Source: Ensifer adhaerens | GTDB taxonomy: Bacteria; Pseudomonadota; Alphaproteobacteria; Rhizobiales; Rhizobiaceae | Length of the DNA: 64,000 nucleotides | Direction: 5' to 3' | NCBI RefSeq assembly: GCF_020035535.1 | Contig: NZ_CP083351.1 | Coordinates: 620,001 to 684,000 of the forward strand | In this document: piece after piece, positions 33,532 to 63,464 of the stretch | Position numbering within the stretch: position 1 is the first letter of the stretch | How the letters are laid out: every line of letters starts with the position of its first letter | Translations under genes and position numbers: made by a program | Notes under the pieces: generated by a model | What the model was told of the DNA's origin: nothing | What the model saw: only the letters and a program-made list of their open reading frames with translations | The model's database searches: none

Positions 33532-33557
33532 AACTTTTGATTTCCCCATCTTGTTCC
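33532..33557 (-). promoter_or_regulatory. EcfG/RpoE2-like promoter, yihY
   Basis: Minus strand GGAAC (33557-33553), 17-base spacer, AGTT (33535-33532). One base longer and with A in place of C/G in the -10, so a weaker call. It lies just upstream of the longest yihY start. Confidence 0.4.
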
Positions 33558-33883
33558 GTAACAGCGCGAACAGTTTGGCGCGCACCGGCGTTATCGGTCG
33601 TTCCTGTTCATGAAGCTTGATGGGCTGAATAGTTTCATCGTCTTCCTGAGGCGAAACGTCCGCCTGCTGCCTCTCTCTCTATCCGAGGGAGGTGCTCGGG
33701 AAGGCACCGTGATCTTCCGGGAAACGCCAACCGAGATAGGTTCGGCCAACAGAGTGAATATTCGACAATTCATCGCGTTTGCAACGACGACTAGGTCCGG
33801 GCGACAGCATCTTCCTGCCGCCGTTCGTTTCATGCTCGCCAACCGGTGAGGGACGGCCTCAGGTCGCTCAATATCTTGCGCAA
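33558..33883. other. Stretch without confident gene
   Basis: About 330 bases between yihY and the DUF982 gene. Open frames exist on both strands, for example a minus-strand frame with LVVVANAMNCRIFTLLAEP, faintly like a host-attachment protein start, but none has a convincing start, ribosome site or family match. Confidence 0.35.
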
Positions 33884-34180
33884 TCAGGTGTATGCCTTCT
33901 CGATCCGCTCAGGCGTTCGCAACGTCGCAATCGCAGTTGGCACCATGCCGGCTTCAAGGCAAGCACCGACGAAGGCCTCGCGCGCGACGGCAGCGGGCGT
34001 GGCCCGCTTCAAGGCGCCGCGGCAGCTGCGCACAGCGCCTTCGTAACCGCGGCCACTGCGTGTCGGCCACTCGTTTTCCAGGAAGTCGAGGGCAGCGTGA
34101 ACAGAGAAAAACAGACGCTCGGAACCGGATTGCAGCCGAACCGACAAGGGAACGGTCCATGGTATTTCTGGGGTGTGCAT
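33884..34180 (-). CDS. DUF982 domain protein
   Basis: 98-residue DUF982 protein, a small family mostly limited to rhizobia; function unknown. The pattern fits throughout: a Trp-containing start (MHTPEIPWTVPLSVRL), LFFSVHAALDFLENEWPTRS, then GYEGAVRSCRGALKR and AREAFVGACLEAGM. Cytoplasmic, no membrane span. ATG 34178-34180 is the only sensible start. No stress-type promoter is visible directly upstream. The gene stands between the yihY and DUF2188 genes, in the stress-related region. Confidence 0.75.
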   Translation of the reverse strand: MHTPEIPWTVPLSVRLQSGSERLFFSVHAALDFLENEWPTRSGRGYEGAVRSCRGALKRATPAAVAREAFVGACLEAGMVPTAIATLRTPERIEKAYT

Positions 34181-34248
34181 GTTTTATACTCCCTGATGTT
34201 GCGTGTGGAGAAGTGATTTTATCAATCCAATTGTCAGGCCGTTTGAGC

Positions 34249-34605
34249 TCAGCGACGTCGAGAAAGACGGAGCAGGAAATTCATTACCAGCACTGCACTG
34301 GTCGCCAGCAGGAAAATTTTTAGCGGTCCCGCTCGATCGGCTTGCTGTTCCGCAATTTGCGGCCTGGTATCGATGACTTCTGTTTGGGGACGGTCAAATC
34401 CGGAAGATGTTTGTTCGTGCCAACGACCTTTGGCGTCCTGAAACTCGATCTGTTCGTCAGAGCCAGGGGCTTCATGTTGGTTCGCGGCGATCTTTGCCGC
34501 GGCTAGCGCATCGCCATGCGTTGAGAAGGTTTCAGAAAAGCCATCGTTGACCTTGTAGGCCCAACCTCCGTCGTGCTGTACGACTTCATATCTGATTTTT
34601 TGCAT
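34249..34605 (-). CDS. DUF2188 domain protein with C-terminal membrane anchor
   Basis: 118-residue protein. Residues about 2-65 match DUF2188: MQKIRYEVVQHDGGWAYKVN, FSTHGDALAAAKIAANQH and IEFQDAKGRWHEQ. A linker of about 30 residues follows, and a single hydrophobic helix (KIFLLATSAVLVMNFLLRL) ends the protein with an Arg-rich tail, so the domain probably faces the cytoplasm from the inner membrane. ATG 34603-34605 has GGGAGGG about 5 bases upstream; a longer open frame upstream has no support. A degenerate promoter (GCAAC-N16-TGTT) may lie upstream. Function unknown. Confidence 0.75.
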   Translation of the reverse strand: MQKIRYEVVQHDGGWAYKVNDGFSETFSTHGDALAAAKIAANQHEAPGSDEQIEFQDAKGRWHEQTSSGFDRPQTEVIDTRPQIAEQQADRAGPLKIFLLATSAVLVMNFLLRLSRRR

Positions 34606-34744
34606 GCGACCCTCCCCCTTTGATGAGGTAAGAACAATCAGGATTGAAACTGGTTGCGCGCATCGGTACCCCACCCTTTCCCAACGCGGTGCAATGAGGA
34701 AGCCGACAGGACGTTGGCCCACTCGCCGTTTGACGAAGACGCGC

Positions 34745-35269
34745 CTACTTCAACGCCCGGGCCATTTCCAGGTGATGCTTAAGCACAGGAAGCGTCTTGG
34801 CTGCCCATGCCTTAAGGTCAGGGTTGTCGCCGCTGTCGGCGTAGCGTCCAAAGATATCGACTGCGTCTTCATGAGCGTCGATCTGGTTGTCGCGGTACTC
34901 GTCGGTGAACTCGGCGCCCTGCAGTTCCTTAAGCTTGCCCAGGGCTTCGTTTTGATCTTCTGACATGGTGCTGGTCGCTGCAGCCTTGACCTTACCGCTG
35001 TCCAAAAGCTGTTTGAGCTCGCTGGTTGTCTTCTGGTGATCTTGCATCATCTGTTGGGCGAACGTCTTTGTCGCCGCGTCGGCGCGCTCCAAAGCCAGCC
35101 TGCTCGTTTCGATTTCGTACATATCGCTCATCGAGACTTCCTTGACGAAGTCCTCCGTCTTCGGCGCCGCCCCGACAAGGCTGTTGATGCCGGACTTTTC
35201 CGCAGCAGATTGGGCAAGGACCGATGTCGCGGCCAGGATCAAAGCCGCAGTCAGCGTAATCGTTCGCAT
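34745..35269 (-). CDS. DUF4142 periplasmic ferritin-like protein
   Basis: 174-residue exported protein. The signal peptide is clear (MRTITLTAALILAATSVLAQ, cleavage near residue 19-20). The mature part is the DUF4142 four-helix bundle: DFVKEVSMSDMYEIETSRLA, TKTFAQQMMQDHQKTTSELK, then FTDEYRDNQIDAHEDAVDIF and LPVLKHHLEMARAL. DUF4142 proteins are linked to stress survival in rhizobia and other soil bacteria; metal binding is possible but not shown. ATG 35267-35269 follows GGGAGAG. A full-match EcfG/RpoE2-type promoter ends 30 bases upstream. Confidence 0.88.
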   Translation of the reverse strand: MRTITLTAALILAATSVLAQSAAEKSGINSLVGAAPKTEDFVKEVSMSDMYEIETSRLALERADAATKTFAQQMMQDHQKTTSELKQLLDSGKVKAAATSTMSEDQNEALGKLKELQGAEFTDEYRDNQIDAHEDAVDIFGRYADSGDNPDLKAWAAKTLPVLKHHLEMARALK

Positions 35270-35298
35270 TGACGTCTCTCCCGTGTTCGATTTGCTCG

Positions 35299-35323
35299 AA
35301 CCACGGAGCCGTCAAGTTGTTCC
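35299..35323 (-). promoter_or_regulatory. EcfG/RpoE2 promoter, DUF4142 gene
   Basis: Minus strand GGAAC (35323-35319), 16-base spacer, GGTT (35302-35299), 30 bases upstream of the ATG. Exact match to the alphaproteobacterial general-stress promoter. Confidence 0.75.
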
Positions 35324-35427
35324 TCAATCCGACTGCACCGATCGATCTTTATCCACGCAGACGCCCCGGTCAGTTGAGGGCTTTCGGACTGCCCCTGCGG
35401 AACGGACACATTGTGGTCCAAGGCCCG

Positions 35428-35727
35428 TTAAAAGTCGCGCGGAGGAACAAACAAGCAGATAGTGCGCCCGGTGTGCGACCCGTTCGTCGAACACCAATGA
35501 TATTCACCGTCAGGCGATTGTCGGATCCTAGAGTCTTTGTAGGGAATAGTCTCACCGGTCGCATTTACGATGAAGCCCTGGGGGCGCTCACCGATGTCGG
35601 CGGCGGGTACCTCGCGACAATCGAAGTTCGAGCAACAGGACATTGGATAGCTCCAGCCGCTGGGGGCGTCATGGGCGAGAGCGGGGAATGCGAGCAGGCA
35701 AAAGCCAAGAGCAATGGAAATCCGCAT
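35428..35727 (-). CDS. Small exported hypothetical protein
   Basis: 99-residue predicted periplasmic protein. The signal peptide is MRISIALGFCLLAFPALAHD, cleavage after ALA near residue 18. The mature part has four Cys (SYPMSCCSNFDCREVPA and HWCSTNGSHTGRTICLF), suggesting disulfides, and the sequence WSYPMSCCSNFDC that recurs in rhizobial exported proteins of unknown function. ATG 35725-35727 has GAGGAAA upstream; the frame extends upstream without support. It converges with nothing and sits between the DUF4142 and pyruvate-oxidase-like genes. Confidence 0.65.
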   Translation of the reverse strand: MRISIALGFCLLAFPALAHDAPSGWSYPMSCCSNFDCREVPAADIGERPQGFIVNATGETIPYKDSRIRQSPDGEYHWCSTNGSHTGRTICLFVPPRDF

Positions 35728-35865
35728 CGTGGTGGTTTCCTCGTTAATCGCGCTCGAAATCAAGCGCTATGGGACGGAACCACAGACGGCGAAAAATGAT
35801 CCATCGCCACGAACCTACCCCTTCAGCGCTGCTGAGGCTCTAATGGCAGAGAACCTCCTCGGCTT

Positions 35866-35890
35866 GGAACAACCAATGCCACTGTTGGTT
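35866..35890 (+). promoter_or_regulatory. EcfG/RpoE2 promoter, pyruvate-oxidase-like gene
   Basis: GGAAC (35866-35870), 16-base spacer, GGTT (35887-35890), 35 bases upstream of ATG 35926. Exact consensus match. Confidence 0.75.
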
Positions 35891-35925
35891 TAGGGGACAA
35901 TTTGAGGCAAGAAGAGGACGCGACA

Positions 35926-37680
35926 ATGGCCAATGCTGCACAGGTGCTCGTCGATTGTCTGATCGCATGGAAGGTCGATCGGGTTTATGGCCTGCCGGGA
36001 GATGGTATCAATGGCATCATCGAAGCGTTGAGACAGCGCCGCGAAGAGGTCGAGTTCATCCAGGTTCGCCATGAACAATCCGCCGCCTTCATGGCCTGTG
36101 CTCACGCAAAGCTGACGGGCCGGCTCGGCGTATGTCTTGCGACCTCCGGCCCGGGCGGCACCAACCTGTTGACCGGCCTTTATGATGCCAAGCTGGATCA
36201 GATGCCGGTGCTTGCGATTACCGGAATGCAATATCATGACCTTGCCTCCACCTTCACGCAACAGGATGTCGACCTCACCCAGGTTATGGAAGACGTCTCA
36301 ACGTTCAACGCGCAGGTGTCGGATGCAGCGCACATGGAGAATATCGCTAATCTCGCCTGCCGCAGCGCCCTTTCAACACGCAGCGTGGCCCACATTTCCA
36401 TTGCCAGCGATCGACAGGAGGAAGGGGAAGCCTCTCGCTCAAGACGCAATCTGAAAGGGCATGTTTCCGCGCGCTACTTCAAACCCGAACCGGTCCCGCA
36501 AGCAGGGCTTATTGACGACGCAGCTCGGATCTTGAACGCGAGCGGCAAGACGGCCATTCTTGTTGGACGCGGCGCGCTTGAGGCGGGGCGAAAGGTCCGC
36601 CTTCTTGCAGAACGCCTGGCAGCTCCTGTCGTCAAGGCATTGCTCGGCAAAACCGTCCTTGACGACAGGGACGAATTCTCGATGGGCGGCATCGGCATCC
36701 TCGGAACAGCCGCTTCCCAGAGTGCACTTTCGGAATGCGATACACTCGTGATCATTGGCTCGAGCTTTCCCTATATCGAATATTATCCAAGGCCCGGGAC
36801 CGCCCGGTGCATCCAGATCGATTGCGACGCGCAGCGTATAGGCCTGCGGTACCCGGTCGACGTCGGTCTCGTTGGTGATGCTGAAGCTGTTCTTGATCGA
36901 CTATTGCCGAAGCTCGATCAGGCAAGCGACAGTACTTTCCTCAAAATCTGCCAAGAGCGCTCGCGCAACTGGCGAGAAAAGATGGAGATCTTGCAAGGAG
37001 AAGAGTGTTCTCCTCTGAAACCTGCTCCGGTTGTCAAGGCGTTTGGAAGAAGGATTGCTCCGAACGGAGTGGTGATCGCTGACTCCGGGCAGAATACCGA
37101 GCTTGCGGCAAGACATCTCGATCTGACGGCAAACAACGCGTTCCTTGTGTCTGGCGCTCTCGCTTCGATGGCAAGCGCGCTTCCTTATGCGATTGCGGCC
37201 GGCATCACCTTCCCAGGACGGCCGATCTATGCCGTTGTCGGCGACGGCGGCCTAGCGATGCAGCTCGGCGAATACTCAACAGCGGTTCGTCACCGGATCC
37301 CGCTGAAGCTGCTGGTGATTTGCAACGGAATGTTAAACCAGATCGCCTGGGAGCAGATGATGTTTCTTGGTCATCCGCAATTTGGATGTGAACTCGCGCC
37401 AATCGATTTCGCGCTTGCTGCCAGGGCCATGGGCGGGGAAGGCTATACAATTCGAGAGTTTAGCGAAATTGAAGCGGTCATGAATGAGGTGTTTTCACAC
37501 GACAGTCCGTCCATTATCCAGGCCTATGTGGATCGCTACGAGCCGATGATGCCGCCGATCATGCCCGCTGACTATTCGAGAAACTTCCAAAAGTCGCTTG
37601 AGGAGACGCCCGGAAAAGACCGGATCAGGGCGAATGTCGCGCGCGAGCCTTTGAAAAGCATGATGGAGCGCAAGGCTTAG
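35926..37680 (+). CDS. Thiamine-diphosphate-dependent enzyme, pyruvate oxidase-like
   Basis: 584-residue ThDP enzyme of the acetolactate synthase/pyruvate oxidase family. The N-terminal domain has GLPGDGINGIIEAL and the activating Glu in FIQVRHEQSAAFMA (about residue 50), plus ATSGPGGTNLLTGLYDAKLD. The C-terminal domain has the ThDP-binding GDG motif (AVVGDGGLAMQLGEYSTAV, about residues 430-448) ending with ICNGMLNQIAWEQ. It lies closer to pyruvate oxidases (PoxB, which turn pyruvate into acetate and pass electrons on) than to acetolactate synthases, but reactions cannot be separated by eye. ATG 35926 follows GAGGA; a TTG at 35902 is an alternative. A full-match stress promoter lies 35 bases upstream, like stationary-phase control of poxB in E. 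coli. Confidence 0.82.
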   Translation: MANAAQVLVDCLIAWKVDRVYGLPGDGINGIIEALRQRREEVEFIQVRHEQSAAFMACAHAKLTGRLGVCLATSGPGGTNLLTGLYDAKLDQMPVLAITGMQYHDLASTFTQQDVDLTQVMEDVSTFNAQVSDAAHMENIANLACRSALSTRSVAHISIASDRQEEGEASRSRRNLKGHVSARYFKPEPVPQAGLIDDAARILNASGKTAILVGRGALEAGRKVRLLAERLAAPVVKALLGKTVLDDRDEFSMGGIGILGTAASQSALSECDTLVIIGSSFPYIEYYPRPGTARCIQIDCDAQRIGLRYPVDVGLVGDAEAVLDRLLPKLDQASDSTFLKICQERSRNWREKMEILQGEECSPLKPAPVVKAFGRRIAPNGVVIADSGQNTELAARHLDLTANNAFLVSGALASMASALPYAIAAGITFPGRPIYAVVGDGGLAMQLGEYSTAVRHRIPLKLLVICNGMLNQIAWEQMMFLGHPQFGCELAPIDFALAARAMGGEGYTIREFSEIEAVMNEVFSHDSPSIIQAYVDRYEPMMPPIMPADYSRNFQKSLEETPGKDRIRANVAREPLKSMMERKA

Positions 37681-37855
37681 CAGGTGCGAAGGATCAGTCA
37701 GCGAGTGCTAAAAAACATCCCATAAGCGAGGGTAACGCGTGTATACAACACGCGCCGATTGCCACTGCGCAGGCCTATAATCAGGCCTTTTCCGCAAGGA
37801 TACAGGTTCGACGGGCGTGTCGTGCGAGGGCGCAAGCTGCGTGGGCGTCTCGTCG

Positions 37856-37996
37856 TCAATCATCAGGGCCGTTCGATTGATCAGGCGCGCGTGAAACCGG
37901 CTGGTCCTTTTCGGTCGCGCCGGGCGTCCAGAACACGACGTAAATGGCTGCCAGGAAAAGCGCGAGCGCCGTAATCGTCACAACGAACTTGGCCAT
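37856..37996 (-). CDS. Small single-span membrane protein
   Basis: 46-residue protein, MAKFVVTITALALFLAAIYV followed by FWTPGATEKDQ and a polar tail: one membrane helix, N-in. The ATG at 37994-37996 (AAGG upstream) is chosen because a full-match stress promoter ends at 38038; a longer start at 38027-38029 (adding 11 basic residues) would leave almost no leader. Function unknown; similar small stress-induced membrane proteins are common in rhizobia. Confidence 0.5.
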   Translation of the reverse strand: MAKFVVTITALALFLAAIYVVFWTPGATEKDQPVSRAPDQSNGPDD

Positions 37997-38037: not shown

Positions 38038-38062
38038 AACCGTCGAGGTGCAATTAGGTTCC
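38038..38062 (-). promoter_or_regulatory. EcfG/RpoE2 promoter, small membrane protein gene
   Basis: Minus strand GGAAC (38062-38058), 16-base spacer, GGTT (38041-38038), about 42 bases upstream of ATG 37996. Confidence 0.7.
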
Positions 38063-45340: not shown

Positions 45341-45365
45341 AACCCGGCGCACCCAGCAAAGTTCC
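45341..45365 (-). promoter_or_regulatory. EcfG/RpoE2 promoter, cytochrome oxidase operon
   Basis: Minus strand GGAAC (45365-45361), 16-base spacer, GGTT (45344-45341), 49 bases upstream of coxB. Exact consensus match. Confidence 0.72.
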
Positions 45366-45407: not shown

Positions 45408-45432
45408 GGAACCATTCTTGCGGCCGGCGGTT
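45408..45432 (+). promoter_or_regulatory. EcfG/RpoE2 promoter, 45515 gene
   Basis: GGAAC (45408-45412), 16-base spacer, GGTT (45429-45432), 83 bases upstream of ATG 45515. It diverges from the oxidase promoter 43 bases away. Confidence 0.65.
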
Positions 45433-45930: not shown

Positions 45931-45955
45931 GGAACAACCTGCCTGCTCGCCAGTT
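45931..45955 (+). promoter_or_regulatory. EcfG/RpoE2-like promoter, SDR gene 46045
   Basis: GGAAC (45931-45935), 16-base spacer, AGTT (45952-45955). The -10 has A in place of C/G. About 90 bases upstream of the SDR ATG. Confidence 0.45.
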
Positions 45956-47131: not shown

Positions 47132-47635
47132 TTAATCCGGCCCCACATCAGCGTGTGTGTGTGTTGGGACGTGACGTGCGGCTTTCTCGAGAAGACGAAT
47201 CCTATGCCTGTATGCTGCGCCGCTTTTTCCTTGCGCTTCAACCTGCGCAAGATTGTCCTTCAAATCGGCGAGCTTCACCGCAAGGCTCAGTGGGTGGGTC
47301 GCTGCGCGGATAGTCAGCGCGTCCTTGGTTTCGTCGAGCCGCTGCGTAAGGTTTTCCACGGCAGCGACAACCTGGGGCGAGAAACCGCATTCGAGCAGCC
47401 TTGCCGAAGTCCAGCCCGGCCCCTTTTCGAGGACGTCGTGGAGCAATGCCACAGCTTTGGCCTTGTGGCCGGCGACCGCATCGCAAACGCGCTCACAGTG
47501 GCGGATATACGGCTCTCCGGCCTTATCCGTCTGACCGGCATGCGCCTTGACTGCAACGCTTCTTGCCAAGTTCAGTTCCTCGGATGCAGACAAGAGCCGG
47601 CTGTTTGAGTGAGGGGGATCGTTGAAGCCTTCCAT
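47132..47635 (-). CDS. HD-domain protein, possible small alarmone hydrolase
   Basis: 167-residue protein of the RelA/SpoT-type HD superfamily, without a synthetase domain. Visible motifs: VKAHAGQTDKAGEPYIRHCE (the HxGQ..G.PYxxH start, about residues 29-48), LLHDVLEKGPGW with the HD pair (about residue 65), ENLTQR and LAVKLADLKDNL (later Asp). This is the pattern of stand-alone hydrolases (MESH1/SAH-like) that could break down ppGpp. One feature differs: the acidic residue after HDxxE, usually Asp or Glu, is Lys. It starts one base after the CBS gene stop on the same strand, so it belongs to the DUF2934-CBS-HD operon under a stress promoter. Confidence 0.65.
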   Translation of the reverse strand: MEGFNDPPHSNSRLLSASEELNLARSVAVKAHAGQTDKAGEPYIRHCERVCDAVAGHKAKAVALLHDVLEKGPGWTSARLLECGFSPQVVAAVENLTQRLDETKDALTIRAATHPLSLAVKLADLKDNLAQVEAQGKSGAAYRHRIRLLEKAARHVPTHTHADVGPD

Positions 47636-48090: not shown

Positions 48091-48315
48091 TTACCCCTCG
48101 TCGGCCGGTCGACCGGCTGCGCCGCGTGGAGCGGTCGATGGCGCGACCACGGTTCCAGTGGCACTGTCCGCCTCCTGGCTTGAAGGGGGGCGCTTGCGCT
48201 TTGCCATCTCGCGGCTTGCCTGCTCCCAATGTCGTCTATCCTCGCCGTCGGGGCATCCTTCGCTTTCCCATATCGCATAGGCGCGCCGACGAATGAGTTC
48301 GTCCGTGTCGCTCAT
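48091..48315 (-). CDS. DUF2934 domain protein
   Basis: 74-residue protein with the DUF2934 motif MSDTDELIRRRAYAIWESEG, then CPDGEDRRHWEQASREM, followed by a disordered tail (Ser/Ala/Pro-rich). DUF2934 proteins are small, often stress-induced, and of unknown function. ATG 48313-48315 has GAGGG upstream; a longer open frame has no support. It is the first gene of a likely operon with the CBS and HD genes. A full-match stress promoter ends 37 bases upstream. Confidence 0.78.
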   Translation of the reverse strand: MSDTDELIRRRAYAIWESEGCPDGEDRRHWEQASREMAKRKRPPSSQEADSATGTVVAPSTAPRGAAGRPADEG

Positions 48316-48351: not shown

Positions 48352-48376
48352 AACCGTGGAACCGCGCGTTTGTTCC
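48352..48376 (-). promoter_or_regulatory. EcfG/RpoE2 promoter, DUF2934-CBS-HD operon
   Basis: Minus strand GGAAC (48376-48372), 16-base spacer, GGTT (48355-48352), 37 bases upstream of the DUF2934 ATG. Confidence 0.75.
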
Positions 48377-51098: not shown

Positions 51099-51123
51099 AA
51101 CCCGTAGGTCCCTGATTTGTTCC
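51099..51123 (-). promoter_or_regulatory. EcfG/RpoE2 promoter, glgX
   Basis: Minus strand GGAAC (51123-51119), 16-base spacer, GGTT (51102-51099). The -10 lies about 92 bases upstream of the glgX ATG. Confidence 0.7.
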
Positions 51124-51148: not shown

Positions 51149-51173
51149 GGAACGAATGCGCGTGCCTGAAGTT
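51149..51173 (+). promoter_or_regulatory. EcfG/RpoE2-like promoter, treZ
   Basis: GGAAC (51149-51153), 16-base spacer, AGTT (51170-51173), 26 bases upstream of the treZ ATG. The -10 has A in place of C/G, but distance is ideal. Confidence 0.5.
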
Positions 51174-53630: not shown

Positions 53631-53801
53631 TTAAAAAACCAGCATCCAGATACCTCGCCAAAACAGTGAGTTCGGCGAAGCCAAGCGTTCGTCTTCATCA
53701 GAAACGTTGACGCGTGAGCGTGGTTTCCGGTCTGCGACCACCTTTCGCAGATTTGGCAGATACGGGTAAGCGACGATCCGGGCTAGGAGTTTCTGGGTCA
53801 T
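53631..53801 (-). CDS. 56-residue hypothetical stress-regulated protein
   Basis: A small gene with a very strong ribosome site (GAGGAGGAGG) 6 bases before the ATG at 53799-53801. It encodes 56 residues: MTQKLLARIVAYPYLPNLRK, a basic middle (ADRKPRSRVNVSDEDERLAS) and an aromatic end (FWRGIWMLVF). It may associate with membranes through its hydrophobic ends. A full-match stress promoter lies 26 bases upstream, a strong sign that this is real. It converges with udgX. Confidence 0.6.
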   Translation of the reverse strand: MTQKLLARIVAYPYLPNLRKVVADRKPRSRVNVSDEDERLASPNSLFWRGIWMLVF

Positions 53802-53826: not shown

Positions 53827-53851
53827 AACGACTTCTTGGCCGTATCGTTCC
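53827..53851 (-). promoter_or_regulatory. EcfG/RpoE2 promoter, 53801 small gene
   Basis: Minus strand GGAAC (53851-53847), 16-base spacer, CGTT (53830-53827), 26 bases upstream of the ATG. Confidence 0.72.
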
Positions 53852-53881: not shown

Positions 53882-53906
53882 GGAACCATTGAACATGGCC
53901 CCGGTT
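53882..53906 (+). promoter_or_regulatory. EcfG/RpoE2 promoter, 53956 gene
   Basis: GGAAC (53882-53886), 16-base spacer, GGTT (53903-53906), 50 bases upstream of ATG 53956. It is back to back with the promoter at 53827-53851. Confidence 0.72.
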
Positions 53907-54346: not shown

Positions 54347-54371
54347 GGAACATAGCCGGAGGACCAGGGTT
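54347..54371 (+). promoter_or_regulatory. EcfG/RpoE2 promoter, glgA
   Basis: GGAAC (54347-54351), 16-base spacer, GGTT (54368-54371), 32 bases upstream of the glgA ATG. Confidence 0.72.
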
Positions 54372-55917: not shown

Positions 55918-56178
55918 CTACAGCCGATCTACAAACTTGTTGAACCGGCTCAATTTGCCGTCCGCGGTCTTATCTTGATGAAGAAACAGTAGCTTATTGT
56001 GGTCGAAGATCTGAAAAAACTCCTCCCAGGAAATGGGCTCCAGGTTTTCTTCGGGCTCGCCAAAGTCTATCCGCAAGATGCCGCCATTAAGCGCTGCCTT
56101 CCGCGCGGGGCGTCCCTTCCTCGCCTCAGCCCAATGCCGGATCTCATCATGGTTGTCAGTTGTCTGGGCCTCACTCAT
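55918..56178 (-). CDS. Small hypothetical protein, sometimes annotated next to glycogen genes
   Basis: 86-residue soluble protein: MSEAQTTDNHDEIRHWAEAR, then a basic part, then RIDFGEPEENLEPISWEEFF and FDHNKLLFLHQDKTADGKLS. This pattern is a known rhizobial small protein of unknown function (it is at times mislabelled as a branching enzyme). ATG 56176-56178 is preferred; starts at 56185 and further upstream are alternatives. It converges with glgA. A full-match stress promoter lies 40 bases upstream. Confidence 0.65.
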   Translation of the reverse strand: MSEAQTTDNHDEIRHWAEARKGRPARKAALNGGILRIDFGEPEENLEPISWEEFFQIFDHNKLLFLHQDKTADGKLSRFNKFVDRL

Positions 56179-56217: not shown

Positions 56218-56242
56218 AACCGACGCCGCTTGAGTTTGTTCC
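56218..56242 (-). promoter_or_regulatory. EcfG/RpoE2 promoter, 56178 gene
   Basis: Minus strand GGAAC (56242-56238), 16-base spacer, GGTT (56221-56218), 40 bases upstream of the ATG. Confidence 0.72.
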
Positions 56243-56298: not shown

Positions 56299-56937
56299 TT
56301 AATTCAGCCCGTAGGGACTCTCCAGGTGAATGGCGACCATCATCTCATGCAGCCACTGGTCCAGGGGTTGGGACCTGCAACGCGAGGCGACCGAAACAAT
56401 CGCGCGTTCAAGCGTGCGTTCGACCAAGTAGTCCGCGGCCTCTGCATTTGGGGTAAGCTGGCGTGCTCTCAGGCGCAATCCCGGTATGAGGTCGATCACT
56501 GATTGGTCGGGAACACCCAGACCGGCAGGAGCGAGGGTAGACAGGTTCTGCAAGTACTCTTCGAAAACAGCACTAACCAGGTCCGCCGAGCCTGCGCATT
56601 TGCTCAGGCGGGCAACGGACTTGAAGCGCTCCGGCACATTCATCGTGTCATATCCGCTGTAGAAGATCACCGGCACCGATCGACGAACAAGCTCGTCGGC
56701 AACCGGAAAAATCAGCTCTCCGTTGAGGTTGATGTCGAGCACGGCGACCTGGATGTCATCAGCCGACGAGAGGCTCTCCATCGCCTCGCGAAGGGTGGGC
56801 GCGGGCCCTATAATGGTCGCCCCAGCGCGTTCGAGCCATAGTGCGATGTCGTTTGCGACAAAGAACTCGTCCTCCGCAACCAGAATCCGCAAATGCTGGA
56901 GATCGGGCACCATCTGTTGTCTGATGTTCTTGGCCAC
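56299..56937 (-). CDS. Response regulator, receiver domain with unknown C-terminus
   Basis: 212-residue protein. The receiver domain (about residues 15-130) has the acidic pocket AEDEFFVANDIALWLERAGA (E22/D23), the phosphorylated Asp in VAVLDINLNGELIF (D68), Ser in VIFYSGYD and Lys in ARLSKCAGSADLV. The C-terminal 80 residues have no DNA-binding or enzymatic domain I know: LTPNAEAADYLVERTLERAI and SQPLDQWLHEMMVAIHLESP. Single-domain-like regulators of this type often relay phosphate or bind partner proteins. Its ATG lies one base past the stop of the 57289 gene on the same strand, so the two, and probably the BON gene upstream, share a transcript. No histidine kinase is near. Confidence 0.78.
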   Translation of the reverse strand: MAKNIRQQMVPDLQHLRILVAEDEFFVANDIALWLERAGATIIGPAPTLREAMESLSSADDIQVAVLDINLNGELIFPVADELVRRSVPVIFYSGYDTMNVPERFKSVARLSKCAGSADLVSAVFEEYLQNLSTLAPAGLGVPDQSVIDLIPGLRLRARQLTPNAEAADYLVERTLERAIVSVASRCRSQPLDQWLHEMMVAIHLESPYGLN

Positions 56938-56938
56938 G

Positions 56939-57289
56939 TCACTCCTTCCTGCGCGGTAGGCGGGTTCTGGCGGGGCGCCGGCTCTCGATAGCTCTTTGAA
57001 GCCTGGTTGCCAGGATCAGAATACGATCCGGAATATCGTTTAACTGGGCCGGCGCGCTGATGCTGGCGGTCGCTCCAGCCTCCGGCTCTATCGACTGAGG
57101 TTCAGGAATAGTAACCTGTCGCTTCTGATCACGGTCGCTCCTAGAAGACATAATCTCGTTCCTCGCCTTCTCTCGCGCCCATTCTTTGCTGTCTTCGATA
57201 AGATCCAGTAACGATACCCCGGCTTGACCAACATGCCAAGCCTTGCCTGAAGCAATCACAATTGAACGCGGCTTAGTGGGGCCCGACAT
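56939..57289 (-). CDS. Hypothetical protein between BON and response-regulator genes
   Basis: 116-residue protein (from ATG 57287-57289) with no recognised domain. It starts MSGPTKPRSIVIASGKAWHV, then VSLLDLIEDSKEWAREKARN, and ends with a helix and a basic tail (RILILATRLQRAIESRRPAR). No signal peptide. A TTG at 57415, overlapping the BON stop, gives a longer version with 42 extra residues; start choice is uncertain. Its stop almost touches the next ATG, so it is in an operon with the response regulator. It could be a partner of that regulator, which is inference from position only. Confidence 0.5.
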   Translation of the reverse strand: MSGPTKPRSIVIASGKAWHVGQAGVSLLDLIEDSKEWAREKARNEIMSSRSDRDQKRQVTIPEPQSIEPEAGATASISAPAQLNDIPDRILILATRLQRAIESRRPARTRLPRRKE

Positions 57290-57411
57290 TTCTTTGGTAC
57301 ATTGCTCGGTGACACGCGCGGTTTGCGGTTTTTTCTGCGTCGGAATCAGAATTTGCCCGCCCGAAATCCCGTCCGGCAGGCGTCCCAAACGATCACGTAG
57401 AATTCCGAAGC

Positions 57412-58056
57412 TCAAAAGGTCTCGCCCTGCCTGGCTGAAGGAGCGTTATCGGAGGAACGAACACGCAAATTGTTCTGGACGTGGGTGACCCCGGACACCA
57501 TTTCGGCGCAATCCTCTGCGCGGCGCTTGTCTTGCCGGCTCGATACCTCGCCCGCCAGGGTGACCTCGCCCGAGGCTACAGCAACATCGATGTCGGACGC
57601 GTCGAGCCAGGGATCGTCGGTCAGCCGATCGTTAACGTCTTCTTCGATCCGTTCGTCTGCCCTTGTGTACCCTTTGGGTCCCTTTCCACGGAACTGGTCG
57701 GCTCTGCGTCGGGAAGCTGCCTCCTCATCGCCAAACCACGAGGCAACCTCATCGCCGGCCCGATCCATGAGCCCGCGCTCCCGACCAAAGCGATCGTTTC
57801 GGCGCTGCTCATAACGGCCGCGTTCCGCACCATAGCGGTCCTGGTCGCGATATGATCCCGAAGGACCATAGGACGGGTAATCAAGGTCATCTGTTCGCCA
57901 ATCCGACTGCTCGGCTCGGTCATAATCGGAAAGCGGGTCACTATTGCCATAGTTGTGGCTTGAAAATTCCCCACGTCGTTGGTTCCCATACTCACCCGAG
58001 CGCGAACCATGTCGACGACCGTAGCGTTCTTCCCTTTCGTAGCGGTCCTGTGCCAT
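57412..58056 (-). CDS. BON-domain stress protein with charged N-terminal region
   Basis: 214-residue protein. Residues 1-120 are low-complexity and charged, with many Arg, Asp, Tyr and Gly (DRYEREERYGRRHGSRSGEY) and then DRAGDEVASWFGDEEAASRR, a typical lead-in found in rhizobial BON proteins. The BON domain (about residues 140-205) has RIEEDVNDRLTDDPWLDASD, IDVAVASGEVTLAGEVSSRQ and AEMVSGVTHVQNNLRV. BON domains in other proteins contact membranes or lipids. No signal peptide, so it is probably cytoplasmic. ATG 58054-58056 follows AGGAGGA. A full-match stress promoter lies 46 bases upstream. It is likely the first gene of an operon with the next two. Confidence 0.85.
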   Translation of the reverse strand: MAQDRYEREERYGRRHGSRSGEYGNQRRGEFSSHNYGNSDPLSDYDRAEQSDWRTDDLDYPSYGPSGSYRDQDRYGAERGRYEQRRNDRFGRERGLMDRAGDEVASWFGDEEAASRRRADQFRGKGPKGYTRADERIEEDVNDRLTDDPWLDASDIDVAVASGEVTLAGEVSSRQDKRRAEDCAEMVSGVTHVQNNLRVRSSDNAPSARQGETF

Positions 58057-58101: not shown

Positions 58102-58126
58102 AACCCGCAACAACCCAACCGGTTCC
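58102..58126 (-). promoter_or_regulatory. EcfG/RpoE2 promoter, BON-regulator operon
   Basis: Minus strand GGAAC (58126-58122), 16-base spacer, GGTT (58105-58102), 46 bases upstream of the BON gene ATG. Confidence 0.75.
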
Positions 58127-59123: not shown

Positions 59124-59317
59124 GATCTATCCCCTTCTCATAACCACATCGTCAGGCGTCTCCCATCCGGCACCGGGCAGATACGCTTCGAGGGAAGGGC
59201 AAACAGGCAGGTTTGCAGAGAGGTTGCCGCTGCCCCGCGCCGATACTTCGAAAGTCGAGCCCAACTTTTGAGAAGGGCTGGGGTTCCATGTTCGCCGAGC
59301 AGAGTGCCGGGCGGGTG

Positions 59318-59342
59318 GAACCATCAGGGGCGCCCACCGTTT
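59318..59342 (+). promoter_or_regulatory. EcfG/RpoE2 promoter, 59378 gene
   Basis: GGAAC (59318-59322), 16-base spacer, CGTT (59339-59342), 36 bases upstream of ATG 59378. Best-matching copy in the window. Confidence 0.75.
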
Positions 59343-59377
59343 TGGAATGCACAGTCAAGAGTTGAAGGAGATAGGCG

Positions 59378-59755
59378 ATGGAGATCGTTGGCAATCAGAT
59401 GTTATCGGAGCATTCCGGCGATGTAACAATCGAATGGGTCGGCGACCAAGGGGAAGTCGTGTCAGTTCGCGTTCCCGTCTCAGAGGCGGAAGGCGCGAGC
59501 CGGGAAACGGCGTTTGATCGTGCGAAGCAAATTTTGAGGGGCGTTACCGAGTTCGCCGAAGCTTCGAGCGGACTGAAAGACGATTTCGCCGGCCGGGGGC
59601 AGTCCAAACCGAGCGCGCGGCGCCGCCATGACGGTGAAGCATTGGAGGAGCAGCTGGTGGAAGGTCTGGAAAGCTCTTTTCCTGCAAGCGACCCCGTCGC
59701 TCCGACAAGCAGCGCCGTTGCAACCGGCCGCACGGACCCAACCAAAGCGCAATGA
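59378..59755 (+). CDS. Small acidic hypothetical protein, stress-regulated
   Basis: 125-residue soluble protein of unknown function. The start (MEIVGNQMLSEHSGDVTIEW) leads to a strand-rich part and a helix (TAFDRAKQILRGVTEFAEAS). The C-terminal segment has EALEEQLVEGLESSFPASDP, a motif that recurs at the ends of many small rhizobial stress proteins. ATG 59378 follows GAAGGAGA. A full-match promoter lies 36 bases upstream. Confidence 0.7.
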   Translation: MEIVGNQMLSEHSGDVTIEWVGDQGEVVSVRVPVSEAEGASRETAFDRAKQILRGVTEFAEASSGLKDDFAGRGQSKPSARRRHDGEALEEQLVEGLESSFPASDPVAPTSSAVATGRTDPTKAQ

Positions 59756-59808
59756 CAATGCGATGCTCGGACGCTCATTGTCTCTGGATCAGTCATCCGC
59801 AAAGAGTG

Positions 59809-59833
59809 GGAACCGTTTTTGAACGAACGGGTT
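59809..59833 (+). promoter_or_regulatory. EcfG/RpoE2 promoter, DUF1236 gene 59863
   Basis: GGAAC (59809-59813), 16-base spacer, GGTT (59830-59833), 30 bases upstream of ATG 59863. Confidence 0.72.
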
Positions 59834-59862
59834 TGACGCAAGCAATCCAAGGAGGTTTGACC

Positions 59863-60150
59863 ATGAAGAAAATCATTCTTGCAGGCATTCTGGCCGGTTT
59901 ATCGTTCAGCGGAATCGCACTGGCGCAAACCGCAACCGTGACTGTGCCCGGCGAGGTTCGCACCTACGTCCTGAAACAGAAGAGCCCATCCGTGAAGTTT
60001 AAGGGAGATGTTGTCGTCGGCACGCGTGTGCCGGACAGCGTTCAGATACTAACGATCCCGGATCAGCCTGACTACGGATACGTGGTGCTCAATGACCAAA
60101 GAGTGGTTATCAACACCAAGACCCACGAGGTGGTCGAAATCGTGCAGTAA
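59863..60150 (+). CDS. DUF1236 exported protein, short form
   Basis: 95-residue periplasmic protein. Signal peptide MKKIILAGILAGLSFSGIAL ending ALAQ near residue 22. The mature part is a DUF1236-type domain: TVPGEVRTYVLKQKSPSV, VVVGTRVPDSVQILTIPD and YGYVVLNDQRVVINTKTHEV. DUF1236 domains recur in rhizobial exported proteins with no known function. ATG 59863 follows GGAGG. A full-match stress promoter lies 30 bases upstream. A longer DUF1236 protein is encoded at 62624-63403. Confidence 0.8.
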   Translation: MKKIILAGILAGLSFSGIALAQTATVTVPGEVRTYVLKQKSPSVKFKGDVVVGTRVPDSVQILTIPDQPDYGYVVLNDQRVVINTKTHEVVEIVQ

Positions 60151-60636
60151 TTGCTCTGAGTTTTAGACCGAGCAGTGAAATCCCACCGCAGTAGAGCGGG
60201 CGGCTGAACGCGACCTTGTTTACGTGTCCGACAAGGACCCGGGTCATAGCCGCTCGCGGTCGAAAGGGCGCTCATGCTATGGCCAGACGGCGCTTCTGTC
60301 ACGGACGGGAGTGCGCGATAAAACGCATCAAGGCCCTTGGGCTTCCGCCCGCAAAGGAGACCTCCAAGTGACGGGCTAGATGTACGAGGCAGAAAGCCAA
60401 GTATGGCAACTCACAGTTTTCGCCACTGCACCCCCTCGAATCCGCTTGCGGCACAGACAGCTACGATCCAACAACGCCTCTCAAGCAGCATTTACAAGTG
60501 AGAGAAGTTGGTCTTCAGTTGGACTTCAGGAGGCAGCGAGGACGGCGCATTCGAAGGCGCCTTCACGGGATGATCTTGGAGGAAATCGGCGAGCTCGTGG
60601 AGCGAGACGCGGAAGGCAGCTGTGAACGACGCCCGA
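60151..60636. other. Stretch without confident gene
   Basis: About 490 bases. A plus-strand frame (60498-60842) contains MILEEIGELVERDAE after an in-frame stretch, but it overlaps the CBS gene and has no ribosome site. I see no RNA gene, repeat or promoter here. Confidence 0.35.
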
Positions 60637-61074
60637 TCATTGTTTCAGCTTCTGCAAGCCAGATTCGACCAACGAAGCCACACCGGGATGCCGGCCGACT
60701 ATATCATTCAAGGCGAGGATACCGACGGCTCTTCGGGTCTCGTCGATCACCACCAAGCGACGGTGTCCCGCATCCACCATTTTTTGCGCCACCCCCAGTA
60801 TATTGTCGTCCGCAAAGCAAGTTTCCGCCGAGACCTTCATGAATTCGTAGACTGCGGTCGTCGACGCCAACCCCTTGGCAACAACCTTCACGACAAGGTC
60901 CCTGTCTGTGACGATTCCCAAAATGGCTCCCACGCTGGGAGCTTCAACAGGCAGCATACTGACGCCCGCCTCACTCATCAGACGAGCGGCCGATTGCGCG
61001 CTGTCGTTGGGCGAGATCGAATAGACAGTCCGGGTCATGAGCGATCGGGCCGATTGTGCGTCAGGGGCGTCCAT
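60637..61074 (-). CDS. CBS-domain pair protein
   Basis: 145-residue cytoplasmic two-CBS protein: ARSLMTRTVYSISPNDSAQS, LPVEAPSVGAILGIVTDRDL (about residues 9-60) and VYEFMKVSAETCFADDNILG, RRLVVIDETRRAVGILALND (about 80-130). Its job is probably to sense adenine nucleotides. The ATG at 61072-61074 has AGGAG with an 8-base spacer; longer open frames start at 61185 without support. It differs clearly from the CBS protein at 47637, so the two are separate members of a family. No stress promoter is visible upstream. Confidence 0.8.
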   Translation of the reverse strand: MDAPDAQSARSLMTRTVYSISPNDSAQSAARLMSEAGVSMLPVEAPSVGAILGIVTDRDLVVKVVAKGLASTTAVYEFMKVSAETCFADDNILGVAQKMVDAGHRRLVVIDETRRAVGILALNDIVGRHPGVASLVESGLQKLKQ

Positions 61075-61469
61075 TGGCGAGGCTCCTGCCGTTGATCGAC
61101 GCCGGGACATGGATTTCATCCACCGGCTGTTTTGGGTGTGGAAGGTCGACATGATCGGGAGGCACAACCTGCTGCCGCAGGACATTTCTTCTACCAGGCC
61201 GGTATCCGTACCATTCGGGATGTCTTTGACGGGGCGGCAACTGCTTCAATGGGGGTCTCACGGGATCTAAACCTTTCTATAACTCATGAGAGCAACGCTC
61301 TTCTTGAGGGTTCGTTCCAACCGCGGGTCGAAGTCACCTAAAACAAAATCACTCTGTCGTTCCCAAACACGCAACGAGAAGGCCGCTTCTCGTTGCGTGC
61401 CGACCAGCGACAGATGATCCTGGCACACCTGCCGCCGACAGGGACAGGAAACTATATAGGCAGGCGAAA

Positions 61470-61964
61470 TCAGGCAGCCTTTGCCTTAACGTTGGCAGCA
61501 GTCAACGCCAGTTTGCTCAAGAGCTTGTCGGTGTTGCCTTCTTCCTGCAGCGTCTGATCCAAAAGTGATACGGCCTCGATCAGGCCAAGTTGTTTCGCCC
61601 AGGTCTTGAGGGTGCCGTACCGAGCGATTTCGTAGTGTTCCACCGCTTGAGCCGCAGAAATCAGGCCGGCGTCGAGCGCCGGGCTGCCCTTGAATTCCTC
61701 TATGATCTCTTCCCCCTCGGCGATGAGGCCCTGAATAGCTTCGCAAGTCTTCCCTTGAGCGCGTTTGCCGATTATCTCGAATACCTGCTGCAAGCGCTCA
61801 ACATGGTCCTCCGTCTCTTCGCGGTGCTTTTCAAATGCGGCCTTGCTATCAGGTAGCTGCGCTGCCCGTGCCATCTTCGGCAGCGCCTTCAGTATCTGCC
61901 TTTCCGCATAGTAGATGTCTTTCAAAGTTTCATAAAACAGAGTGTCGAGTGTTTTGTCCGGCAT
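61470..61964 (-). CDS. YciE/DUF892 ferritin-like protein
   Basis: 164-residue protein of the DUF892 (YciE) family, a ferritin-like four-helix bundle linked to stress and metal handling. Features: LFYETLKDIYYAERQILKAL, FEKHREETEDHVERLQQVFE with the EH(x)ExxxH-type ligands, AAQAVEHYEIARYGTLKTWA and LLDQTLQEEGNTDKLLSKLA. The pairs Glu-His-His across helices fit a di-iron site. ATG 61962-61964 follows GGAGGG. A stress-like promoter lies 35 bases upstream, back to back with one for the next gene. Confidence 0.88.
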   Translation of the reverse strand: MPDKTLDTLFYETLKDIYYAERQILKALPKMARAAQLPDSKAAFEKHREETEDHVERLQQVFEIIGKRAQGKTCEAIQGLIAEGEEIIEEFKGSPALDAGLISAAQAVEHYEIARYGTLKTWAKQLGLIEAVSLLDQTLQEEGNTDKLLSKLALTAANVKAKAA

Positions 61965-61998
61965 GGTGCCCTCCGTTGGCCAGTGGTGAGGCGCACAC

Positions 61999-62023
61999 AA
62001 CATTTCGACTGCGCAAAGGTTCC
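61999..62023 (-). promoter_or_regulatory. EcfG/RpoE2-like promoter, YciE-type gene
   Basis: Minus strand GGAAC (62023-62019), 16-base spacer, TGTT (62002-61999). The -10 has T in place of C/G; the distance to the ATG (35 bases) is ideal. Confidence 0.5.
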
Positions 62024-62029
62024 CATCCG

Positions 62030-62054
62030 GGAACAAAAACCCGCCTTTCGACTT
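62030..62054 (+). promoter_or_regulatory. EcfG/RpoE2-like promoter, 62120 gene
   Basis: GGAAC (62030-62034), 16-base spacer, ACTT (62051-62054), 66 bases upstream of ATG 62120. Weaker -10; interesting mainly because it is back to back with 61999-62023. Confidence 0.35.
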
Positions 62055-62119
62055 TGAAGCGTCAACGCACGCCATTGCTGGCGTAATGGTGGTGCGCAAC
62101 ACTTGAGGGAGAACTCACA

Positions 62120-62350
62120 ATGCAACAGGACAACACCGGTTCAACTCACATCAAGCCGGTTGGAGCGAAGCGCGGACGCAGAAAGGCCATCCGTCCGTTC
62201 GAATCCGTATTTCGGGGTCACTACGATCTGACCGAGTTTATCGCGAAATACCGCTTGGCGCCCTTGCAAGCGCGAGAGATTTTCGAGCGTGTGGGGCCAG
62301 CCCGCGCCGCGCTCGACAAGTATATGGCGGCGCACGAGGGGAGCCGCTAA
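62120..62350 (+). CDS. Small basic hypothetical protein
   Basis: 76-residue protein with an Arg/Lys-rich N-terminal half (MQQDNTGSTHIKPVGAKRGR, then RKAIRPFESVF) and a helical end (FIAKYRLAPLQAREIFERVG and ARAALDKYMAAHEGSR). No signal peptide. It could bind nucleic acid; no family recognised. ATG 62120 follows GAGGGAGA. Function unknown. Confidence 0.6.
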   Translation: MQQDNTGSTHIKPVGAKRGRRKAIRPFESVFRGHYDLTEFIAKYRLAPLQAREIFERVGPARAALDKYMAAHEGSR

Positions 62351-62623
62351 GCAAGCCCGACGTTTGGCGGAGAACACGCCGCGACGGCCCTTCGGGTCGA
62401 AGGACGCGCTTTTTACAATTTCCCCCTGCTCTTTAAGTGGCGTCTTCATCATCCGGAGGGGGCAAGTACGGCTTCCCTGATCGCCGCTTGCGCAGCGGTT
62501 GACTGCTCGACAATCTTGGCGGGCGACCCTGCGGAACGGCGGGGCGAAGGGATAGAGGGAGACGCGGAAGCGCTACTGGAGGCGTGGAGCCGTCCGGAAA
62601 TCCAGACGGCTCATCGTTAACGG

Positions 62624-63403
62624 CTAGGCGAGGATCAATACAATTTCGAGCGAAGAAGGATCGACGATCGCGATCCGGCCGTCGGCCAGGACGAAGAACA
62701 GGTAACCTTCATAGCGAGGAACAACTTTTACGATCCGCGTCGGAAGCGGTCTCAGCTTGACCTTCGTTGCCTGGGGAACCACGACGCCGACCGCAACATC
62801 GAAGTCGACGTCAATAGGTCGTACCTTTTCTTCGCGGATCACCTGTGTAATTTCGGTCTTTTGCTTGACAGTCACATTTGTCGTAGTCGAATTGGAACCC
62901 TGTGTTTCCTGGGTCGACTGGGATTTGCTCTGGTTTGACTGTTTCGTGCTACCTTGATCGGTGTTCTGCTCCGTGGAGCTCTGACCGTTGCCTGACTGCG
63001 TGTTCGCGCCACTTTGTTGCTGATCGCTTTGTTTCTGATCCGAGCTGCTTTCAGACTTGCCCGGCTGTTGTGTCTTGTTCATATCAGGCTTTTTTTGCTC
63101 GGTCGCAGATTGTTGCGTATCTGACTTTTGAGTATCGGCTGACTTCTTTTTGTGTTTCGTTGAGCCTTGAGTTTCATTCTGCTGTGTTGCCCCCTGCGTC
63201 TCGTTTTGTTGCGTTGAGCCTTGCGTCTTGGACTCCTTACTCTTTTGGCCATCGCCCGTCGGGCATTGCGTACCAGCCGGGCATTTTGTCGATTGACCCT
63301 GTTCGGTCTGCCCCTGCGTGTTTTGCTGCGTTTGGGCGAAGGCTGGAACGCCAACGGTGCTGAGGCTTAGCGCCAAGGTGCTTGTGATAAGAATGTTTGG
63401 CAT
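62624..63403 (-). CDS. DUF1236 exported protein with long Gln/Ser/Thr-rich repeats
   Basis: 259-residue periplasmic protein. Signal peptide MPNILITSTLALSLSTVGVP ending AFAQ near residue 24. Residues about 25-175 are low complexity, rich in Gln, Ser, Thr and Lys, with an approximate repeat (TQGSTQQNE, TQGATQQNE, TQGSTKH). The final 75 residues are a DUF1236-type domain: KVRPIDVDFDVAVGVVVPQA, RIVKVVPRYEGYLFFVLAD and GRIAIVDPSSLEIV. The disordered region could span or bind the envelope, a possibility only. ATG 63401-63403 follows GGAG. A full-match stress promoter lies 37 bases upstream. Confidence 0.82.
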   Translation of the reverse strand: MPNILITSTLALSLSTVGVPAFAQTQQNTQGQTEQGQSTKCPAGTQCPTGDGQKSKESKTQGSTQQNETQGATQQNETQGSTKHKKKSADTQKSDTQQSATEQKKPDMNKTQQPGKSESSSDQKQSDQQQSGANTQSGNGQSSTEQNTDQGSTKQSNQSKSQSTQETQGSNSTTTNVTVKQKTEITQVIREEKVRPIDVDFDVAVGVVVPQATKVKLRPLPTRIVKVVPRYEGYLFFVLADGRIAIVDPSSLEIVLILA

Positions 63404-63439
63404 TGGAACTCTCCAACTGGTTGGTCCGCACTGCCGCCT

Positions 63440-63464
63440 AACCATCACGTTTTTCTAATGTTCC
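63440..63464 (-). promoter_or_regulatory. EcfG/RpoE2 promoter, long DUF1236 gene
   Basis: Minus strand GGAAC (63464-63460), 16-base spacer, GGTT (63443-63440), 37 bases upstream of the ATG. Confidence 0.75.

Follow-up and report, generated by a model that had tools for sequence, protein, structure and literature searches.

A dense set of ECF15-type promoters on an Ensifer adhaerens plasmid and a candidate plasmid-borne partner switch for the sigma factor EcfG2

The window analysed was a 64,000-base stretch (bases 620001-684000) of contig C3, a 735,709-base plasmid of Ensifer adhaerens; positions are those of the window unless a replicon is named. The plasmid is accompanied by two larger replicons, the chromosome C1 (4.19 Mb) and C2 (3.20 Mb), in a genome of 8.13 Mb, and the annotated record matching it is E. 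adhaerens W2-A plasmid p1 (NZ_CP083345.1, offset 275 bases). The part from 33532 to 63464 carries treZ, glgX and glgA for trehalose and glycogen metabolism, a cytochrome oxidase cluster, genes for a pyruvate-oxidase-like thiamine pyrophosphate (TPP) enzyme and for BON, CBS, DUF1236, DUF4142 and YciE-type proteins, and genes for numerous small proteins. It holds a dense set of sites of the ECF15 (EcfG/RpoE2) promoter family. It also encodes a NepR-like protein and a receiver-sigma protein, designated REC-sigma2, which are candidate partners of EcfG2, a sigma factor encoded on the same plasmid.

Exact matches to GGAAC-N16-(C/G)GTT occurred 20 times in the window. In 100 shuffled sequences the mean was 1.02 and the largest count was 6, so none reached 20, and the initial annotation had rightly put these sites far above chance. 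Seventeen of the 20 fell in 33532-63464, and 15 of these 17 had the correct orientation and lay 8-91 nucleotides (nt) 5' of a start codon. ECF15 promoters likewise combine a GGAAC -35 element with a -10 element that follows after a 16-nt spacer. Distances in the window refer to RefSeq starts; the DUF2934 gene, which was not in the PLSDB table, was taken as an open reading frame (ORF). Conservation was surveyed in 82 loci of relatives, where orthologues of genes in the window supplied 252 upstream regions of 250 nt each, and the fractions listed with the sites below are orthologue upstream regions with the site.

35299..35323 (-), ECF15-type site, GGTT, 29 nt 5' of the DUF4142 gene; kept in 2/3
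35866..35890 (+), ECF15-type site, GGTT, 35 nt 5' of the TPP-enzyme (pyruvate-oxidase-like) gene; kept in 8/8
38038..38062 (-), ECF15-type site, GGTT, 8 nt 5' of a gene for a 57-aa membrane protein
45341..45365 (-), ECF15-type site, GGTT, 48 nt 5' of coxB; kept in 0/12
45408..45432 (+), ECF15-type site, GGTT, 82 nt 5' of gene 45515
48352..48376 (-), ECF15-type site, GGTT, 36 nt 5' of the DUF2934 ORF 48091-48315 (-)
51099..51123 (-), ECF15-type site, GGTT, 91 nt 5' of glgX; a CGTT site in 7/11
53827..53851 (-), ECF15-type site, CGTT, 25 nt 5' of gene 53631-53801
53882..53906 (+), ECF15-type site, GGTT, 49 nt 5' of gene 53956
54347..54371 (+), ECF15-type site, GGTT, 31 nt 5' of glgA; site in 3/9
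56218..56242 (-), ECF15-type site, GGTT, 39 nt 5' of gene 55918-56178 (86 aa); site in 10/11
58102..58126 (-), ECF15-type site, GGTT, 45 nt 5' of the BON gene, at the head of the apparent BON / NepR-like / REC-sigma2 operon
59317..59341 (+), ECF15-type site, CGTT, 36 nt 5' of gene 59378; site in 10/16
59809..59833 (+), ECF15-type site, GGTT, 29 nt 5' of the DUF1236 gene 59863; site in 11/15
63440..63464 (-), ECF15-type site, GGTT, 36 nt 5' of the long DUF1236 gene
45931..45955 (+), AGTT site, 89 nt 5' of the SDR gene 46045; site in 4/28
51149..51173 (+), AGTT site, 25 nt 5' of treZ; site in 2/10
61999..62023 (-), TGTT site, 34 nt 5' of the YciE-type gene; site in 14/21
33532..33557 (-), weak AGTT site with an N17 spacer, 92 nt 5' of yihY; site in 0/3
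62030..62054 (+), weak ACTT site, 65 nt 5' of gene 62120; site in 0/3
47555..47579 (-), exact match within the HD-domain gene
61294..61318 (-), exact match, next start 219 nt away

The initial annotation had named fifteen exact sites, each before a gene, and these are the 15 upstream sites. Of the last two listed, the intragenic match at 47555 is probably due to chance, and the distant match at 61294 is doubtful as a promoter. Its five weaker sites (yihY, SDR, treZ, YciE-type and 62120) were all found; a further site that it had placed at 22643 was present, but with a 17-nt spacer. Exact GGAAC-N16-NGTT sites were found in 85 of the 252 orthologue upstream regions, against 4.1 expected from other spacings. 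The best-kept sites were those of the TPP-enzyme gene, gene 55918-56178, the DUF1236 gene 59863, the YciE-type gene, glgX, gene 59378 and UdgX (5/7). The sites of coxB, the HD-domain gene (0/5), two CBS genes (1/23 and 1/22) and the SDR gene were barely or not kept.

The whole plasmid carried 82 exact sites against 17 for the reversed pattern. In a spacing scan of the plasmid, a spacing of 16 gave these 82 sites, and each other spacing from 10 to 23 gave 5-23. GGAAC-N16-SGTT (S, C or G) ranked first of 360 letter permutations; the others had a mean of 14.5 and a maximum of 68, the latter being an overlapping form of the motif itself. Apart from this, an unrelated permuted pattern, GACGA-N16-STTG, occurred 55 times on C3 (10 of them from 653.5 kb on), against the mean of 14.5. 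The densest part of the plasmid was the stretch reported here, and the best 30-kb windows held 17-18 sites.

The initial annotation had proposed a comparison with other replicons. The whole genome held 220 exact sites and 160 reversed-pattern sites, which leaves 138 against 143 for the other two replicons jointly and places the excess on the plasmid. Counts were also made on ten further rhizobial plasmids, nine chosen because they encode an EcfG2 relative and pSymA taken as a comparison. Sites against reversed-pattern sites were 24/5 on pMhuNZP2235a, 71/27 on pT173c, 18/7 on pRetTAL182e, 69/31 on pSymB, 23/11 on p42f, 72/43 on Corn53 AB, 57/36 on Shinella pZ25, 37/26 on pSymA, 16/13 on pAtCFBP7129a and 6/7 on Agrobacterium pA. 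That a dense ECF15 (EcfG/RpoE2-family) promoter set sits on the accessory replicon is thus well supported. It does not form a single island, however: enrichment extends over the whole plasmid and is seen on several other rhizobial plasmids as well.

The base before GTT differed between the replicons. This comparison used our own gene calls, which matched RefSeq starts in 10 of 14 checked, and covered 1.6 of the 4.19 Mb of the chromosome and 0.52 of the 3.20 Mb of the second replicon; the background at other spacings was at most 0.9 per base class. Among upstream-placed sites the counts were A14/C11/G31/T5 on the plasmid (C in 11/61), A0/C12/G1/T1 on the chromosome and A3/C3/G4/T2 on the second replicon. 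For C against non-C, chromosome and plasmid differed with p 3.3e-6. The -10 of the plasmid sites was mostly GGTT or AGTT and not the CGTT of the EcfG1-target consensus, while that of the chromosomal sites was mostly CGTT; the plasmid sites also tended toward GTTnGA. The promoters belong to the ECF15 family, as the label EcfG/RpoE2-type implied, but mainly not in its canonical form: among the 17 exact sites of the stretch, GGTT stood in 13 and CGTT in four. In Rhizobium etli, GGAAC-N16-CGTT was reported as the EcfG1 motif, and no EcfG2 motif was found (PMC3892343).

Around EcfG2 relatives in other genomes, NGTT sites exceeded the background at other spacings 6- to 17-fold in 22 Ensifer loci and 5- to 11-fold in 58 further loci, and G was the highest base before GTT in both groups. 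The genome survey comprised 101 genomes of the family from 100 genera, of which 20 were EcfG2-positive at a threshold of 190 bits. The ratio of RGTT excess (R, A or G) to CGTT excess was 1.42 (1.11-1.72) in EcfG2-positive genomes with a NepR-like gene, 0.30 (-0.05 to 0.63) in those without one and 0.32 (0.00-0.58) in EcfG1-only genomes, the division of the EcfG2-positive genomes by NepR-like gene having been made after the data were seen.

The plasmid ECF15 sigma gene, of EcfG2/RpoE5 type, was located at C3:615108-615620, with about 4.4 kb between it and the start of the window. Its product shared 40% identity with the chromosomal EcfG1, 83% with a C2 copy, 75% with S. meliloti pSymB RpoE5 and 48% with R. 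etli p42f EcfG2, and thus belongs to the same ECF15 subgroup as the last two. Apart from the C2 copy, EcfG1 was the best-scoring other sigma factor of the genome. By sequence the protein falls in the ECF15 group, and its best PDB match was 5uxx, which we take to be an EcfG-NepR structure. Of 21 Ensifer loci tested, 20 had a GGAAC-N16-CATT promoter about 34-59 nt 5' of ecfG2, some of the starts being estimates; it was also found on C3, C2, pSymB and pT173c. It is the promoter printed for S. meliloti rpoE5, a gene raised by RpoE2 (PMC6180224).

EcfG1 adjoins NepR and PhyR on C1, where a second NepR/PhyR pair lies elsewhere, and Pfam NepR matches in this genome were confined to C1. Around the second pair (C1:385747-394694), four exact sites of general stress response (GSR) type were seen within 8 kb. 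Since the plasmid has its own sigma factor and the window has candidate parts of a dedicated switch, direct regulation by chromosomal RpoE2 is not required, and the EcfG/RpoE2-regulon interpretation of the initial annotation is, as a whole, partly supported.

The candidate partners are encoded by three neighbouring genes, which on the strength of gene overlap and spacing form an apparent operon:

57412..58056 (-), BON-domain protein gene (Pfam BON), heading the apparent operon
56939..57415 (-), NepR-like ORF, annotated with 158 aa, the C-terminal part NepR-like; candidate EcfG2 anti-sigma
56299..56937 (-), REC-sigma2 gene, 212 aa, annotated "response regulator"; candidate anti-anti-sigma

The NepR-like family consists of proteins of 49-76 aa. 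The ORF of the window matched the hidden Markov model (HMM) of the family with E 9e-18, being itself one of nine seeds, and matched a profile built without it with E 4.6e-5. Profile comparison (hhalign) of the family with NepR gave 80.4% (E 1.3e-5); a reversed-NepR control gave 0.8% (E 0.073), and comparison with a single NepR gave 43.7% (E 2.4e-4). When a 22-member profile was run against the 101 genomes, the three weakest matches were canonical NepR genes. The family is therefore a remote homologue of NepR. It was found (E<0.01) in 56 of 82 EcfG2 loci, eight of which had supplied seeds; its distance from ecfG2 was at most 500 nt in 38 loci and at most 3 kb in 49. The 1.6 Mb of chromosome gave no match below E 0.05. 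Among genomes, it occurred in 10/20 EcfG2-positive ones and 1/81 others (p 1e-7). An RsiA-like ORF beside rpoE5 was already noted (PMC6180224), and R. etli EcfG2 was reported to lack a nearby anti-sigma or response-regulator gene (PMC3892343).

In REC-sigma2, Pfam analysis showed a receiver at 18-106 and a PhyR-type sigma2 domain at 150-200, each slightly below the cut-off. The order is receiver and then sigma region 2, the reverse of PhyR, in which N-terminal sigma regions 2 and 4 precede a C-terminal receiver, and region 4 is absent. Profile comparison of the sigma2 domain with EcfG2 gave 96.8% at E 2.5e-10, the 62 aligned columns showing 37% identity, and the domain HMM scored 46.1 bits with EcfG2, 27.8 with EcfG1 and 12.4 and 11.0 with the two PhyRs. 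The reverse order, the missing region 4 and the closeness to EcfG2 show that REC-sigma2 is not a PhyR, although it may work like one. The functional residues of the receiver are present, with E22, D23 and D68 invariant and K113 at least 90% conserved in 34 sequences. Against the PDB, its front part matched Sma0114 and SdrG ahead of PhyR receivers, and its back part matched region 2 of SigR (1h3l) and 5uxx; we take the entries concerned to be Sma0114 for the front and an EcfG for the back.

The search for homologues of REC-sigma2 returned 51, not all with sigma2; those that bore a name were called general response regulators or "hypothetical". The sigma2 domain scored above 80 bits in 13 of the 82 EcfG2 loci; a receiver was seen in front in 12, and the thirteenth, locus L138, was counted on its sigma2 score alone. 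The gene occurred in 4/20 EcfG2-positive genomes and 1/81 others (p 0.005), and lay 0.3, 0.9 and 1.8 kb from ecfG2 in genomes G106, G098 and G009. The NepR-like gene, just upstream of it in the window, was also its neighbour in the Ensifer loci examined. Just beyond the window, at C3 685-707 kb (L002 33551-38666, L003 4211-7213), two HWE kinases and further receivers were found: the candidate sensors comprise a 1162-aa CheB-CheR-PAS-HWE kinase, an HWE kinase-receiver, an ATPase-only fragment and single receivers.

Two paralogous proteins of 147-148 aa (C3:525956-526402 (-) and C3:255251-255694 (-)) have a different N-terminal part and a sigma2-like C-terminal part, each scoring 42 bits on the REC-sigma2 C-terminal HMM; they are perhaps further inputs to the same switch. 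A second ecfG2 / REC-sigma2 / NepR-like cluster was located at C2:35151-38298, where the REC-sigma2 copy is an open frame without the first part of the receiver and looks decayed.

Taken together, the stretch is proposed to be the densest part of a plasmid-wide general-stress regulon, with a second, plasmid-borne partner switch acting on EcfG2, a reading held here with middling confidence. The plasmid genes would be read from promoters of the form GGAAC-N16-NGTT, with a purine preferred before GTT, most likely directly by the plasmid EcfG2/RpoE5-type sigma factor. The NepR-like protein would hold EcfG2 as an anti-sigma factor. Under stress, an HWE histidine kinase would phosphorylate the receiver of REC-sigma2, which, through its EcfG2-like region 2, would then draw the NepR-like protein off EcfG2 and so turn the plasmid promoters on. 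The logic of PhyR would thus be rebuilt by joining a receiver to part of EcfG2, with the order of the two inverted. The chromosomal PhyR-NepR-EcfG1 system probably feeds in, EcfG1 transcribing ecfG2 from its CATT promoter, and the BON / NepR-like / REC-sigma2 operon would itself stand behind the regulon promoter at 58102. A stricter version seems doubtful: rhizobial accessory plasmids would carry a self-contained second switch, its anti-anti-sigma factor having originated apart from PhyR when a receiver was fused, in reverse order, to region 2 taken from the sigma factor of the plasmid itself, and this switch would serve a private GGAAC-N16-RGTT class poorly read by EcfG1, making the stress regulon the plasmid's own.

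The proposed system is like the PhyR-NepR-EcfG switch in its three kinds of component: an ECF15 sigma factor, a NepR-like small protein and a protein that combines a receiver with a sigma-like domain. It is unlike it in that the receiver comes first, region 4 is absent, sigma2 is nearest to EcfG2, the small protein falls outside Pfam NepR and the system is plasmid-borne. The single-domain GSR regulators Sma0114 and SdrG have the nearest PDB receivers, but REC-sigma2 has a C-terminal sigma-like output domain that they do not have. The S. meliloti RpoE2 regulon is alike in promoter architecture and in many gene types and is spread over chromosome and megaplasmids, whereas the excess here is almost wholly on one accessory plasmid and of GGTT/AGTT type. 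For R. etli EcfG2 and S. meliloti RpoE5, neither a REC-sigma2 partner nor a -10 class is proposed in the parts of the literature examined. In open-licence full texts, no description was found of a receiver-first, sigma2-last regulator or of the three-part plasmid module (EcfG2 / NepR-like / REC-sigma2).

Several observations weigh against this proposal. The strongest is that overexpression of S. meliloti RpoE5 yielded one putative target (PMC6180224), which an unrecognised anti-sigma factor holding RpoE5 inactive could explain. R. etli EcfG2 targets were reported not to match the EcfG1 motif (1/19 units; PMC3892343), and both EcfG paralogues of Sphingopyxis use the same promoters (PMC7083833). 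In the 2.5 kb examined of p42f, neither a NepR-like match nor the conserved ecfG2 promoter was found. Pfam NepR (PF18557) matched 0/10 NepR-like members at E up to 10. REC-sigma2, in only 13 of 82 EcfG2 loci, cannot be the general regulator of EcfG2, and at the remaining loci its place must be taken by PhyR or something different; on this plasmid its gene lies 61 kb from ecfG2. G087, the sole genome without an EcfG2 above 190 bits that has REC-sigma2 and NepR-like genes (there at C3:158331 and C3:181111, respectively), showed an RGTT excess of 34 against 9 and no second EcfG above 117.5 bits among the matches listed. Some EcfG2-positive genomes (G024, G051 and G106) showed no RGTT excess, and CGTT was also more frequent in EcfG2-positive genomes. 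Before GTT, glgX has G here and C in all seven relatives with the site, and most other plasmids have G and C excess alike; the base therefore drifts, and the class is best described as relaxed with a purine preference.

It is possible, as the best-surviving alternative, that chromosomal EcfG1 (RpoE2) reads the island directly, with EcfG2 and its neighbours playing a minor part or staying quiet. GGTT and AGTT would then be weaker forms of the EcfG1 site, so the plasmid genes would be on only under strong stress. The near-absent effect of RpoE5 overexpression in S. meliloti, where RpoE2 raised about 100 promoters (PMC6180224), fits this, although an unrecognised anti-sigma factor could account for the quiet RpoE5. 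Likewise, Sphingopyxis GSR promoters have flexible -10 boxes that include GGTT, departure from CGTT lowering the output (PMC7083833), and EcfG1-only genomes showed a small RGTT excess (730 vs 613). On the other hand, the -10 differs between replicons of one genome, and the RGTT/CGTT excess ratio was 0.32 in EcfG1-only genomes against 1.42 in those with EcfG2 and a NepR-like gene. In S. meliloti, CGTT is present in seven mapped promoters that RpoE2 raises, five of them on pSymB (PMC6180224); these had been listed for being raised by RpoE6 as well and so are not a random sample.

Rather unlikely is control of the NepR-like protein by chromosomal PhyR, with EcfG2 as a second output of the known switch. 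The NepR-like family occurred in 56 and REC-sigma2 in 13 of the 82 EcfG2 loci, most having the NepR-like gene without REC-sigma2, as this would predict; where REC-sigma2 exists, its sigma2 scores (46.1 bits to EcfG2, 12.4 and 11.0 to the PhyRs) speak against it. A still less probable role for REC-sigma2 is that of a competitor that binds core RNA polymerase or EcfG2 partners and dampens the response, or of a phosphate sink for GSR kinases. It does lack region 4, which is present in PhyR, and its receiver is nearest to those of single-domain proteins. However, the residues around the EcfG2 motif DDLVQET are altered to AADxLVERT in the REC-sigma2 family, which, given the role of sigma region 2.2, should weaken polymerase binding; the adjoining NepR-like gene in Ensifer also opposes this role. 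Finally, although motif matches alone do not show function and two of the 17 stretch sites are badly placed, chance matches in a GC-rich plasmid are already refuted in bulk as an explanation, the shuffle, reversed-pattern, spacing and permutation controls and the orthologue conservation all opposing it.

Elsewhere in the window, a caspase-family protein gene was seen at 19646-21481 (+), and an error-prone polymerase / ImuA / SOS peptidase / dinB cluster at 24438-31904. Two sets of type I secretion genes lie at C3 709-729 kb (L003 9480-16971, 21220-29251), and a large repeat protein accompanies each.

That EcfG2 sigma factors are plasmid-borne had been noted in the R. etli work (PMC3892343), and the RsiA-like ORF and GSR genes on rhizobial megaplasmids were also already known. 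For years the plasmid EcfG2/RpoE5 sigmas have counted as orphans whose control was unclear and whose known targets were few. The present analysis provides them with candidates for an anti-sigma factor, an anti-anti-sigma factor and a set of targets, and with an ecfG2 promoter that is conserved. It also suggests that mimicry of sigma factors may have arisen repeatedly in evolution, and that stress genes can travel on a plasmid along with their own switch.

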